Of a stretch of 64,000 bases of DNA, positions 211 through 23,957 are shown in pieces. The notes beneath the pieces are model-generated. The model was not told the origin of the DNA and did not search any database. It worked only from the letters and a program-made list of their open reading frames with translations. Positions within the stretch are counted from its first letter, which is position 1. Each line of letters opens with the position of its first letter. Where the stretch lies: NCBI RefSeq assembly GCF_000172555.1, contig NZ_ABOX02000036.1, positions 1 to 64,000 of the forward strand, in the 5' to 3' direction. The translations under genes and the position numbers were made by a program. The stretch comes from Pedosphaera parvula Ellin514 (GTDB lineage Bacteria; Verrucomicrobiota; Verrucomicrobiia; Limisphaerales; Pedosphaeraceae).

Positions 211-260
211 TCGGAAGGTATCGGAAGGTATCGGAAGGTATCGGAAGGCTTGGAAAATTT
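211..260 (+). repeat. 10-bp tandem repeat array, four units
   Basis: Three consecutive perfect copies of TCGGAAGGTA and a fourth differing in its last two bases occupy 211-250, followed by an A/T-rich tail (GGAAAATTT). The 10-bp period is not a multiple of three, which argues against coding. It belongs with the other 10-bp-period blocks at 461-515 and 20466-20959. Confidence 0.85.
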
Positions 261-460: not shown

Positions 461-515
461 CGGTGGATGACGGTAATAGACGCCAATGGTCGGTAACGGT
501 CGGTTAAATTTTTTT
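461..515 (+). repeat. 10-bp-period degenerate array ending in TTAAATTTTTTT
   Basis: Five degenerate 10-bp units starting CGGT or CGCC run without a gap into a seven-T tract. Nineteen bases (CGGTAATAGACGCCAATGG) are identical to the array at 20791-20846, about 20 kb away. The array ends about 10 bp before the ribosome binding site (AGAGG, 526-530) of the amidohydrolase gene, so it sits in its promoter or leader. Confidence 0.85.
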
Positions 516-537: not shown

Positions 538-2220
538 ATGCGCTGCTTTTTTGCTTTAATTGTATTGGGGGGAGTCGTAGCGTCGTTTGCCATGGGAACT
601 AATTCAAGCTCGGCGATGTCGGCGGATTTGGTGATTGTCAATGCGAAGGTTCATACGATGGACGAGGCGCGTCCGAAGGCGGAGGCGGTGGCGGTTTATG
701 GGAATCGGATTGCCGCGATTGGGACCACCGAGGAGATCAAGGAACTCGCCGGCAAAAATACCCGGGTGGTGGATGCGGGCGGGAAGCTGGTGTTGCCTGG
801 GTTCAATGATTCGCATGTGCATTTTTTGATGGGCGGTTTTCAGTTGTCGCAGGTCGATTTGCGGGATGCGAAGTCGCCGGAGGAAGTGGCGGAGAGGTTG
901 AGGAAGTTTGCTGAGAAATTGCCGAAGGGGCAATGGATTGTGGGCGGTGAGTGGGATCATGAGCGGTGGCCGGGAGCGCCTTTGCCGCACAAGGAGTGGA
1001 TCGATGCAGCGACGCCGAATAATCCGGTGTTCGTGAGCCGGTTGGATGGACATATGGCGTTGGCGAACAGCCTGGCGTTGAAGTTGGCGGGGGTGACGAA
1101 GGAGAGCAAGGAGATTGATGGCGGTTTGATTGTTCGTGACCCTAATGGGGAGCCGACGGGGTTGCTGAAGGATGCGGCGATGTCGTATGTGGATAATGTG
1201 ATTCCGGACAAGACTTTTGATGAGAAGTTGGCGGCGGCGAAGGCGGCGACGGATTATGCGGCGAGCTTGGGCGTGACGAGTGTTCAGGATATGTCGACCG
1301 GGCGGGATGTGGGAGTTTACCAGACGCTGCTGGCGGAAGGCGGGTTGAAGACGCGGATTTATGGGATGTCGCCGATTTCGTCTTGGGAACGGTTGGGGAA
1401 TACGGGGATGAAGGCACCTTTCGGGAATGACATGTTGCGGATTGGGGGATTGAAGGGTTTTTCGGATGGGAGTCTGGGGTCGTCGACGGCGTTGTTCTTC
1501 GAGCCTTATTCGGATGATGCGCATAATCGGGGTTTGCCTGGGCCGGAGATGTTTCCTGAAGGGATCCTGTTGAAGCGGGTGCTGGAGGCGGATCGCGCAG
1601 GATTTCAAATCATCATCATGCGATTGGGATGAGGCGAACGCGCAGATTTTGGATATTTATAAAAGACGGTGGACAAGAACGGAGCCAGGGATCGGCGTCC
1701 GCGCATCGAGCATGCACAACATTTGCGGGCGCAGGAGATTCCGCGTTTCGGCGCGGAGCATGTGATTGCGTCGATGCAGCCGTATCATGCGGTTGATGAC
1801 GGGCGCTGGTGCGAGGAGCGGATTGGGAAGGAGCGGACGAAGGGGACGTATGCGTTTCGGTCGCTGCTGGATTCGGGGGCGATGCTGGCGTTTGGGTCGG
1901 ATTGGACGGTGGCACCGTTGAACCCAATGACTGGCATTTATGCAGCCGTAACGCGTCGAACGTGGGATGGAAAGCATCCGAATGGCTGGGTGCCGGAGCA
2001 GAAGATCACGTTGGAGGAGACGTTAAGGGGTTATACAGTTGGATCTGCTTATGCGGAGTTTACCGAGAAGGTTAAAGGGACAATTACGCCTGGCAAGCTG
2101 GCGGACGTTGTAATTTTGGATAAAGACTTGTTTGCCATTAATCCGGAGGAGATTTTGAACACGAAGGTGGTGTTAACGGTGATGGATGGACGGGTGGTTT
2201 ATGAAAGGGAAGGCAAATAA
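538..2220 (+). pseudogene. Amidohydrolase family protein (YtcJ-like), three one-base frameshifts
   Basis: This is a metal-dependent amidohydrolase of the amidohydrolase_3 / YtcJ-like family, predicted to hydrolyse C-N bonds; the substrate cannot be told. The N-terminus (MRCFFALIVLGGVVASFA) looks like a signal peptide, followed by the beta-sandwich start and the metal-binding DSHVHF. ATG at 538 is preferred to the upstream TTG at 514 because AGAGG lies at 526-530. The frame stops at 1630-1632 and reopens in the same phase. Family comparison explains this by three missing single bases near 1616, 1628 and 1666, restoring [17 protein letters not shown] and then [11 protein letters not shown]. The repaired protein would be about 560 residues, with RIEHAQ and the C-terminal [10 protein letters not shown] intact. 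Three deletions in 50 bp could be sequencing error or recent decay. Confidence 0.85.
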
Positions 2221-19714: not shown

Positions 19715-20465
19715 AATCGTTAATCCTTTCTTCGCGGAGCAAAACGAACCCTCGTTCACGATACCTCGCAACTTTCTTCCAGAGAAAACCACCAAGAGGT
19801 GCCCTGAGCATAGTATCGCGTGGCTCCAGCCGCAAAAATCAGCATATGGGGATTTACCCTTCCGCTACTGGCTGAATTGGACCCCATCAACCGACTTGGA
19901 AGGTTTCCCGTCGCGTTCGGAGTATCGATCATCTCGCATGCTGTTTTTCTCGCTGTCTGGTTGGCGAATAGCGGCCAACCTTCGACTAGTTGAGGTTGGA
20001 CGTGAGTGAGCCAGTCTTCACAGAAGTAGCTGCCGTTGCTCGGGGTTTACACGCCCAGCAATGCCAGCGGGGCGTCCTTGGCAACGATGGACTGGAAGAG
20101 GGCGGCCCACGGTTCGAAGGGTACAGTTGAGGAGGGGATTTATTTCAAAGGTTGTTAAATGCAGAAAAAGTAAAAAAGTGGTTGACATAGTATTTAAGTA
20201 AGTTAGTTTTGTAAACGTTAAAAGTTATGTTCAGGCAGCTATATAAAGGAATGCCTCAGCGTATGAGAGCAAAGAATGAGCCTGTTTCGGCCATGGCAAC
20301 AACGAGTGAGGCTGGGCAATTGGGTTTGCTTGGACTCGTCGGTCCTCTCGGGTGGGTGCCAAGGTTTAATCGTGTTTCAGTCAGATACATCCATTCATGC
20401 AGTTGGTTATCATGCCGGGTCGGCTCGTTGAAATTTCGAATGCCGATCGTTGAATTTCGAATTGG

Positions 20466-20529
20466 AAGAATCGGAAGGTGGATGAAGGTAGTAGAAGGTG
20501 GATGTAGCTGGATGAAGGCTAAATTTTTT
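20466..20529 (+). repeat. 10-bp-period array ending in CTAAATTTTTTTT
   Basis: Five degenerate 10-bp units around GGATGAAGGT and GTAGAAGGTG run in register into AAATTTTTTTT. The motif differs from the other blocks, but the period, the length of about five units and the closing T-run are the same. Confidence 0.8.
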
Positions 20530-20577
20530 TTAAGGGTGATATCGAATGACGGGTTTCGATTTTCGAGTGGAGAGGTC

Positions 20578-20636
20578 TAACGCCTGATAACGGTAAATAA
20601 CGCTATATAACGCCAAATAACGGTTAAATTTTTTTT
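20578..20636 (+). repeat. 10-bp-period array of TAACG units ending in TTAAATTTTTTTT
   Basis: Five units each containing TAACG at exact 10-bp steps (for example TAACGGTAAA and TAACGCCAAA) lead into GGTTAAATTTTTTTT. Each unit keeps the five-base core while the other five bases drift. Confidence 0.85.
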
Positions 20637-20728
20637 GGGAAGGAGTCAGGAGTCAGAATCCAGAACACAGGATGAAAGGGTTCGGTGCGTGGAGTGAATG
20701 GTTGGATGAGTGGCTGGTTATGAGCAAT

Positions 20729-20768
20729 GCCGATTGCAAATCGGCGATACGGCAGATTAAAAATCTGC
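20729..20768. repeat. REP-like twin hairpin
   Basis: Two small perfect hairpins stand in tandem: GCCGATT-gca-AATCGGC (20729-20745) and GCAGATT-aaa-AATCTGC (20752-20768), both with 7-bp stems and 3-base loops, six bases apart. The shared design suggests a dispersed extragenic palindrome element. Confidence 0.65.
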
Positions 20769-20790
20769 GCTATCTGGCAGGCAGTTCGGT

Positions 20791-20846
20791 CGGTATCGGA
20801 CGGTAATAGACGCCAATGGACGGTAATGGTCGGTTAAAATTTTTTT
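20791..20846 (+). repeat. 10-bp-period array, sister of 461-515
   Basis: Five units starting CGGT or CGCC at 10-bp steps end in CGGTTAAAATTTTTTT. CGGTAATAGACGCCAATGG is identical to the array at 461-515, showing a shared origin for two loci 20 kb apart. Confidence 0.85.
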
Positions 20847-20900
20847 ATGAGGAGAGAAAACCGTATTAAGATGATGCAGGGAGTTGGAGGCTGGAGATTA

Positions 20901-20959
20901 AGCTTGAGTTAACATGAACTAAACTGAGTTAAACCGTGTTAACGGCAGTTAAAAAATTT
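20901..20959 (+). repeat. 10-bp-period array of GTTAA units
   Basis: Five units each ending GTTAA or ACTAA at 10-bp steps (for example CTTGAGTTAA and ACCGTGTTAA) lead into AAAAAATTTATG. The closing tract is A6T3 instead of a T-run. It lies 137 bp before the acnA start. Confidence 0.8.
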
Positions 20960-21095: not shown

Positions 21096-23957
21096 ATGAA
21101 CAAAGCGCATAACCTGTTTAACACATTTCAAAAGTTTGATTTGGGCAACGGCCAACAAGGGTCGTTCTACTCTCTTCCCGCCCTGGAAAAGGCCGGAATC
21201 GGTCCCATCTCCCGTCTGCCGGTTTCCATCCGTATCGTGCTGGAGTCGGTGTTGCGCAATTACGACGAGAAGAAGGTTTCCGAGACGAATGTTCGCACGC
21301 TGGCGAATTGGAAGGCGACGGCGGAGCGGTCGGAGGAGATTCCGTTTATCGTGGCGCGTATCGTTTTGCAGGATTTTACGGGGGTGCCGTTGCTGGTGGA
21401 TTTGGCAGCGATGCGGTCGGCTGCGGCGCGGTTGGGGAAGAATCCAAAAATTATCGAACCATTGGTGCCGGTGGATTTGGTGGTGGACCACTCGGTGCAG
21501 GTGGATTTCGCCGGTAGCGCTGATGCGCTTCGCAAGAACATCGAGATGGAGTTTCAGCGCAATCGTGAGCGTTATCAGTTCCTGAAGTGGGGCATGCAGG
21601 CGTTTGATACTTTCAAGGTGGTTCCGCCGGGCATCGGCATTGTACACCAGGTGAATTTGGAATATCTCGCGAAGGGTGTGCTGTCGGACAAGAGCGGCGT
21701 GTATTATCCGGACAGTCTGGTGGGCACGGATTCGCACACGACCATGATTAATGGCCTCGGCATTGTTGGTTGGGGCGTGGGTGGCATTGAAGCCGAAGCG
21801 GGGATGTTGGGCCAACCGGTTTATTTCCTCACGCCTGATGTGGTGGGCGTGCATGTGACGGGAACTTTGCAGGAAGGGGTTACGGCGACGGACCTGGCGT
21901 TGACGGTGACGCAAATGTTGCGCAAGGCGAAGGTGGTTGGAAAGTTTGTGGAATTTTTTGGTGAAGGTGCGGCGGCATTGCCGGTGGTGGATCGTGCGAC
22001 CATTGCGAACATGGCTCCGGAATATGGGGCTACGATGGGCTTTTTCCCGATTGATGAAGAGTCGTGCCAATATCTGACTTCGACTGGTCGCACGAAGGAG
22101 CAGGTGGATGCGTTCAGGAATTATTTCAAAGCGCAGGGGATGTTTGGCATTCCGAAAAAAGGTCAGTGCGAGTACAGCACGGTGGTGGAATTGAATTTGA
22201 GCGAAGTGAAGCCGAGCGTTGCGGGGCCGAAGCGTCCGCAAGACCGCATTAATCTGCCAGAGTTGAAGGACAAGTTCGTTGATTTGTTCCAGAAGCCGGT
22301 GGCCGACAATGGTTACAACAAAGCAGTGGCTGACTTGGGCAAGCGGTTTGCCACGCGGTTTGGAGGCCGAACAACCGCTGCTGAAATGATCAGTGGCGGT
22401 GGTGACCAGGTTCCTGCCGCCAAGAAGTCTCAGAATACAAGCGCATTGACGGAGTTGGAAATGATGAATAATCGTCCAACGCCGGATGTGATGCCGGCCA
22501 ATGCCATGGGCAAGGAAGCCGGGTTTGCTGATCTCGGTCATGGAGATGTGCTGATCGCTTCGATCACTTCCTGCACCAACACTTCGAATCCGAGTGTGAT
22601 GCTGGCGGCCGGCATTCTCGCAAAGAAGGCGGTGGAAAAAGGTTTGCAGGTGAATCCAACGGTGAAGACTTCGCTTGCGCCCGGGTCGCGGGTGGTCAGC
22701 GAATATTTGAAGAACAGCGGATTGCAACCTTACCTGGATCGGCTTGGATTCCAGATCGTGGGTTATGGCTGCACGACATGTATCGGTAACTCGGGTCCTC
22801 TCGATCCGCATTTGGAAGACACGATTGTGAGCAACGACATTGTCGCGGCTTCGGTGCTTTCGGGTAACCGCAACTTTGAAGCGCGCGTGCATCAGAGCAT
22901 CAAGGCGAACTTCCTGATGAGCCCGCCGTTGGTGGTGGCGTTTGCGCTGGCTGGTCGCGTGAACATCGACATGTCGAAGGAGCCGATTGGCAAGGGCAAA
23001 GGTGGAGAGGATGTTTATTTGCGCGATATTTGGCCTACTCTGGGAGAGATTCGCGACTTGATGAAATCGTCCTTCAGTGCGGAGACGTTTCATGCGATGT
23101 ATAAAGACTTTTCGTCGCAGAATCCGCTTTGGGACAAGATTCCATCTTCGGCTGGCAATCTGTATCAATGGGATGACAAGTCGACTTACATCCAGGAGCC
23201 CCCGTTCTTCACTGAGTTTTCGCTGCAGACGCATCCCATCACGGAAGTGTTGCAAGCTCGGCCGCTCGCGATATTTGGTGATTCAGTGACCACGGATCAT
23301 ATCAGCCCTGCCGGGGCCATTAAGGCGAGTTCACCAGCCGGAGTTTATCTGCAGGGGAACGGTGTTCCGGTGGTTGATTTCAACAGTTACGGATCGCGTC
23401 GTGGAAATGATCGCGTGATGGTGCGCGGTACTTTCGCGAATGTTCGCATCAAGAACTTGATGGTTCCGGGAGTCGAAGGTGGCGTTACAATGCTTCAACC
23501 TGAGGCGGAGAAGTTGAGCATCTATGATGCGGCCATCAAGTATGCGCAGCGGAAAACTCCATTGATCATCTTCGCGGGTCAGGAATATGGCACGGGCAGT
23601 TCGCGTGATTGGGCGGCGAAAGGCACGAACCTGCTGGGTGTCAAAGTGGTGGTTGCTCAAAGCTTTGAACGCATTCACCGATCCAATCTCGTCGGCATGG
23701 GTGTGTTGCCGTTGCAGTTCAAGGAAGGAACGAGCGCGCAGACGTTGAAGCTCGACGGCACTGAAACGTTCGATGTGCTTGGTCTCGATAAAAACTTGAA
23801 ACCGCAACAGGATGTGACGTTGCGTATTACGCGGGCCAATGGCCAGGTGGAGAATGTAGCGGTGCGCTGCCGCATTGATACGCCGATTGAAATCGATTAT
23901 TACCAACATGGTGGCATCCTGCCGTTTGTATTGCGTCAGTTGATTGCGGCGGCCTGA
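21096..23957 (+). CDS. acnA: Aconitate hydratase A
   Basis: AcnA interconverts citrate and isocitrate in the TCA cycle using a [4Fe-4S] cluster. At 953 residues it has the size of the AcnA/IRP type. Visible features are [20 protein letters not shown], the cluster ligands in [15 protein letters not shown] and [13 protein letters not shown], and the C-terminal swivel domain with [17 protein letters not shown] and [21 protein letters not shown] short insertion (about residues 440-470, [18 protein letters not shown]) precedes the third domain. The ATG lacks a clear Shine-Dalgarno sequence and has a long repeat-bearing leader. A terminator closes the unit. Confidence 0.97.

Follow-up and report, generated by a model that had tools for sequence, protein, structure and literature searches.

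Exact 10-bp tandem arrays in gene leaders of Pedosphaera parvula are linked to Gp27-like genes and may be pac-like sites

Intergenic regions of the window, by which we mean the whole 64,000-nucleotide stretch analysed here, contain blocks of short units repeated in tandem at steps of 10 bp, about one turn of the DNA helix, and most of these blocks run into a T-tract. The question is where such arrays come from and what may read them. The sequence-only reading had described six blocks (211-260, 461-515, 20466-20529, 20578-20636, 20791-20846 and 20901-20959). Exact 10-bp steps are present in all six at these positions, with a lag-10 self-match of 0.52-0.82, compared with at most 0.39 at lags 8, 9, 11 and 12. 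In agreement with the same reading, all six lie on the + strand upstream of + strand genes (Amidohydro_3 and aconitase), and four of them close in TTAAA(A)TTTTTTT or GCTAAATTTTTTTT. Each block had been credited with a core of its own; many cores on one architecture do exist, but the blocks at 461-515 and 20791-20846 belong to one type, hence the window holds five cores and not six.

Two arrays precede the amidohydrolase gene (538..1632, + strand, ATG at 538). The distal one (T4, 211..250, + strand) consists of four units of TCGGAAGGTA and has no closing T-tract of its own; its block continues into the next module, of 7-bp period, through GGAAAATTTCGAATGG. Longer T4 copies are found at C1:101.2 kb and C3:175 kb of the source genome. 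The proximal array (T2, 461..515, + strand; CGGTGGATGA CGGTAATAGA CGCCAATGGT CGGTAACGGT) ends in the tract TTAAATTTTTTT at 504-515, 22 bp upstream of the amidohydrolase ATG, and its type is present at many sites of the genome.

The aconitase gene acnA (21096..23957, + strand, ATG at 21096) lies downstream of four arrays, and its leader is headed by the -35-like motif TTGACATAGT (20182..20191, + strand). All four arrays are on the + strand: a T3 array at 20476..20531 (AGGTGGATGA AGGTAGTAGA AGGTGGATGT AGCTGGATGA, closing tract GGCTAAATTTTTTTT), a T1 array of five TAACGSYNNA units at 20577..20636 (closing tract GGTTAAATTTTTTTT), a T2 array at 20791..20846, the closing tract of which, TTAAAATTTTTTT, is directly followed by ATGAGGAG, and a T5 array with a GTTAA core at 20901..20959, which closes in TTAAAAAATTT followed by ATGAGAGCG. 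The order of units before the closing unit of the T1 array is identical to that of a copy at C29:23.6 kb. Other repeated elements are interspersed with the arrays. Modules of 7-bp period, AATTTCGAATGGCG, are located at 254-284, 418-447 and 20429-20460, and such modules often stand directly before T1 arrays; a double palindrome, GCCGATTGCAAATCGGC ... GCAGATTAAAAATCTGC, lies at 20728-20776 between the T1 and T2 arrays and recurs in locus L118 at C34.

To see how far the arrays exceed chance, we scanned 1.944 Mb of the source genome (320,643 intergenic bases), selected almost entirely without regard to arrays, for stretches with at least 26 of 40 matches at a given lag, using gene calls from a simple hexamer model made for this analysis and 20 second-order Markov shuffles as the null. 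The genome comprises 7.41 Mb in 102 contigs, of which the genome-wide counts given here cover 1.94-2.06 Mb. Twenty-three intergenic lag-10 arrays were found, while each of the 20 shuffles gave none, so the excess over shuffled intergenic DNA on which the sequence-only reading had staked its claim is present. Control lags 8, 11, 12, 13, 16, 17 and 19 gave no intergenic array and lag 9 gave one. A second scan, anchored on the closing tract, returned 35 arrays at lag 10 and between zero and two at each control lag. Lag 7, with four intergenic arrays, is the sole other period with a clear intergenic excess, apart from multiples of 10. In coding DNA one lag-10 array was detected. The proposal that the period excludes coding thus holds nearly always in the source genome, but it does not extend to relatives, where many arrays reach into the 3' end of a Gp27-like reading frame (see below).

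The arrays are a few recurrent types spread over many loci: T1 (TAACGSYNNA), T2 (CGGTAATGG/CGCCAATGG), T3 (AAGGTGGATG), T4 and T5 (CGNGYTAACT). T1 occupies about 20 places in the source genome, which together give 39 overlapping core matches; 14 of 16 fully read T1 arrays have five units, and each unit combines a conserved 6-base core with four variable bases. Between unrelated flanks, the T1 copies of C9 and C11 agree over 62 bp with two mismatches, a length that comprises just the array and its tract. Recurrence of this kind speaks against a mechanism that invents arrays anew at each site, one of the two possibilities raised at the outset. The T1 core was found in one other family of the order and was not found in a genome of the same genus (G001). 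Relatives show the same architecture with other cores. A further 10-bp array, GGATNNACNC (with the relatives ACACAGATAA and CGCGGATGAA), was observed in GTDB contigs L200-L316, for example L203, L223 and L249; it is present in well over 100 contigs at the least, from a wide range of phyla including Acidobacteria, Planctomycetes, Chloroflexi and Proteobacteria, and some copies are paired in inverted orientation, so that they would fold into hairpins. Our literature search returned nothing on the array sequences, on 10-bp intergenic arrays or on PF11985 in Verrucomicrobia.

The position of the arrays relative to genes is not random. Eighteen of 20 clusters are directed at a downstream gene on the same strand (p = 4e-4), which bears out the suspected orientation bias, and mixed orientation occurs in one of the 20 only. 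Ten of 19 clusters lie between divergent genes, which account for 31% of intergenic bases, and one lies between convergent genes. In 14 of 30 arrays an ATG lies no more than 1 nt from the end of the tract, compared with 57 of 1094 control tracts (5%). The motif TTGACATAGT occurs 12 times in the source genome; five leaders headed by it bear arrays downstream, including that of acnA, and one leader has two copies of the motif. In G001, a promoter of the form TTGAC-N5-TATAAC-N4-GTTAT is present in 11 copies, with none in the 29 other genomes searched, the source genome included. A 10-bp array follows within the next 900 bp after all 11 copies, and a boxA-like sequence, CTTTGACAA, lies between the promoter and the first array in seven of them. 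Since promoter-like sequences and, in G001, boxA-like sites precede the arrays, we place the arrays in long 5' leaders, which from this arrangement of motifs are probably transcribed.

Two features of these leaders were observed in addition. In the G001 loci L329-L333, L336 and L339 the boxA-like sequence is of the rRNA type and stands between a promoter with the inverted repeat TATAAC-N4-GTTATA and the long array leader, which suggests Nus-factor antitermination of leaders other than those of rRNA. Rfam Acido-Lenti-1 motifs, a known and unexplained RNA motif, lie in or beside array leaders at L336:1746-1791, L333:1898-1943 (- strand) and L326:2983-3010; the first two score above the gathering threshold, while the match in L326, cut off by the end of the sequence, scores below it. 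Acido-Lenti-1 may be one of the dispersed modules.

A function of the arrays as folded RNA is not favoured by the sequences. Hairpins between GGT and GCC units were considered, as the G and C classes of T1 units look balanced, and rejected because T1-T4 fold no better than shuffles. An intrinsic terminator was also rejected: no stable hairpin directly precedes the T-tract, and T1, T2, T3 and T4 again fold like shuffled sequence. T5, which lacks a long T-tract, folds somewhat better than shuffles through its TTAA palindromes. With the covariance models of Rfam 15, no family reached its gathering score in the window.

A candidate partner protein is encoded next to the arrays. Four of the 11 promoter units of G001 encode, intact or broken, a protein MARRTGLIARLPMDIREHLN..., while the other seven promoter copies drive array leaders. 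Relatives of this protein match Pfam PF11985, Phage_Mu_Gp27, with the G001 copies just under the cutoff; the copy at C43 of the source genome reaches 44.7 bits (cutoff 28), and 11 of 24 aligned family members match at E<=0.01. Gp27 of phage Mu is, as we take it, a small terminase. A search of 167 genomes of the order found the Gp27-like family in 29, with 13 copies in G001, 13 in G003, five matches in G015 and up to 17 per genome by profile. The G001 protein had no match in PHROGs, and the family profile, run against PDB sequences, brought up no convincing hit. An AlphaFold monomer (mean pLDDT 83) predicts an N-terminal HTH-like bundle followed by long helices. Its two best structural matches are both G20C TerS, and they are weak (Z 6.0 and 5.6, Foldseek E 2.2), the Z scores lying below the level that would mean more than a common arrangement.

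Arrays are tightly linked to PF11985-type genes in many genera. At 30 Gp27-like loci, each taken as the gene with about 1.5 kb on either side (88 kb in all), 16 lag-10 arrays were found, many of them at the start or stop of the gene, compared with none at lags 11 and 13 and two at lag 8. In G001 and G015 the array density at such loci is 10-40x that of random DNA from the same genomes. As an independent test we used 20 loci from 20 further genomes, outside the data that gave rise to the idea. They contain ten lag-10 arrays, eight of which lie within 60 bp of a Gp27-like start or stop; near the gene ends a single array was found at lag 7 and no array at lags 8, 11, 13, 14, 16 and 17. Such proximity was thus seen at 8 of 20 Gp27-like loci and at 7 of 1160 ordinary genes (Fisher p = 8e-12), the baseline being from the source genome only.

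In the source genome the linkage is seen at C43, where a T1 array with its tract is followed after ~57 bp by a truncated Gp27-like frame and a repeat module, and then by a T2 array with its tract and, after ~45 bp, by the full Gp27-like gene. At C3:222.8 kb a truncated Gp27-like start, RRKEKVARLPYKIREAM, a weak match (E 0.1 alone), precedes a T1 array. The same array type occurs both at a Gp27-like gene and dispersed for T1 and T2 in the source genome, for TACGAGCTGG in G001 and for AAATCAAACC in G157 and G151, and the -35-like TTGACATAGT heads one Gp27-like start (L322) as well as array leaders. Among the arrays of relatives that enter the 3' end of the frame, several span the stop codon. Cores at the 3' end (AAATCAAACC, AATCCGACCA and AGTCAAACCC) are similar across several families. 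A sequence pattern for these cores matched 6 of the 22 genomes that have the gene and none of the 15 that lack it, which alone is not significant (p = 0.06). The linkage is not universal: in G003 no array was found at the five loci read. Co-inheritance of a core with a particular paralogue was rejected, as the two TAACG-linked proteins (C43 and G015 C46) are not sister sequences. No Gp27 remnant could be recognised in most array leaders, that of acnA included.

We consider a protein that reads the one-turn period, the second possibility of the sequence-only reading, the best explanation, and the Mu-Gp27/small-terminase-like family its candidate. More precisely, we assign a probability of about 0.4 to the reading in which multi-copy HTH proteins of this family in the order have the arrays as their pac-like sites, whether still intact or surviving as dispersed relics. 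The HTH domains of the SF6/SPP1 small terminase form a ring in which neighbours are about one full turn of B-DNA apart, and the pac direct repeats cover the promoters and the start of the small-terminase gene, whose operon is repressed (PMC4737164). Judging by the sequence linkage, Gp27-like proteins may bind the arrays in the same manner, presumably as rings. A ring or chain of subunits would present one reading domain per helical turn, so that each domain would meet one 10-bp unit, and the A/T tract would ease bending of the DNA. The proteins would have sites where their own genes start or stop, and dispersed copies would stand in the long 5' leaders of further genes, aconitase among them. 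There, binding would most simply lower or time transcription, as with the SPP1 small terminase at its own operon; any regulatory effect, including one on acnA, is in this sense a prediction. The exact 10-bp period, the tolerance of unit changes, the bendable A/T tract and the site at the own gene would all follow from the logic of a terminase ring.

The likeness to the TerS-pac systems of SPP1 and SF6 extends to several features: direct repeats at the start or the end of a gene that itself encodes an HTH protein from a small-terminase-like family (at C43 and at the eight independent loci), an exact array step matching the reported spacing of neighbouring HTHs in the ring, and A/T runs adjoining the repeats. 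The differences are that the Gp27-like family has many chromosomal copies with different cores, and that the arrays, exact 10-bp tandem units of conserved sequence, are also dispersed at unrelated genes. Since weak binding with little sequence preference has been reported for the SF6 terminase domain, the conserved cores exceed what that precedent requires.

A doubtful, though serious, competitor is that the arrays are functionless, one of many small intergenic repeat modules copied between leaders by selfish or neutral dispersal, with the Gp27-like gene as another passenger or as the former full element. Array-rich intergenic regions are indeed mosaics built from several recurring modules, among them 7-bp modules, palindromes and Acido-Lenti-1 motifs, and leaders could be eroded copies of that element. 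Truncated Gp27-like starts adjoin arrays, the 62-bp copy stands at two loci with unrelated flanks, and T1 is missing from the same-genus genome. The short tandemly repeated repetitive (STRR) sequences of cyanobacteria form several degenerate families of 7-bp units dispersed in intergenic regions; to our knowledge neither a function nor a closing T-tract, gene orientation or partner gene is known for them. The arrays, too, form several families of short degenerate tandem units, intergenic and dispersed, but their unit is 10 bp, and it is the 7-bp modules of the source genome that resemble STRR more. Dispersal alone leaves unexplained the strong orientation towards genes and the near absence of mixed clusters, the ATG at the tract end, and the way in which arrays with different cores recur in many genera where genes start and stop.

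The ATG could instead indicate translational punctuation, in which one stop codon per 10-nt unit halts ribosomes in three frames, because 10 mod 3 = 1 shifts the frame with each unit, and the U-tract and ATG permit restart. All three sense frames are closed in 21 of 30 tract-closed arrays, compared with 13% of random leader windows, the ATG frequency fits, and so do the arrays that span Gp27-like stop codons. We nevertheless regard this account as improbable, and reject a three-frame stop element as the sole explanation: T4, TACGAGCTGG, GCGGCTTTCC and many GGATNNACNC units contain no stop, and the stretches between arrays show no lack of sense stops (38.1 per kb, compared with 39.3 in other leaders). 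Moreover, the frame of the first ATG reaches the next array or gene in 10 of 20 cases only, and the required frame shift would come from every period that is not a multiple of three, yet the arrays keep to 10. Even less credible, in our view, is an ordinary tandem-binding transcription factor, such as a response regulator of the OmpR/PhoB type, unrelated to the Gp27-like proteins. Four to five tandem units with a conserved core upstream of genes would suit it, and PhoB/OmpR boxes and plasmid iterons likewise are direct repeats at roughly helical spacing read by cooperating subunits. Pho boxes, however, have a period of 11 bp and iterons one of about 20 bp, and we know of no multi-copy family of phage-like genes with such sites at either end. 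Such a factor would also leave unexplained the arrays at Gp27-like stop codons and the many cores per genome, and it is the promoter-like motifs that stand upstream, with the arrays behind them.

With pac-like sites of Gp27-like proteins as the favoured reading, an unnamed class of bacterial repeats gains a candidate partner protein and, with it, a rule that can be put to the test: each helical turn is read by one domain. If the reading is true, a bacterial order has put small-terminase-like proteins and their pac-like sites to new use as a chromosomal system present in many copies, and its proteins and DNA cores form a ready-made collection for learning how proteins of this kind choose their DNA. 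A wider version, which we put forward tentatively and think rather unlikely as a whole, is that Verrucomicrobiota domesticated a phage packaging family, which then multiplied in them, that every copy or lineage has a 10-bp-step recognition array of its own, and that the dispersed network controls many genes or marks DNA for packaging.
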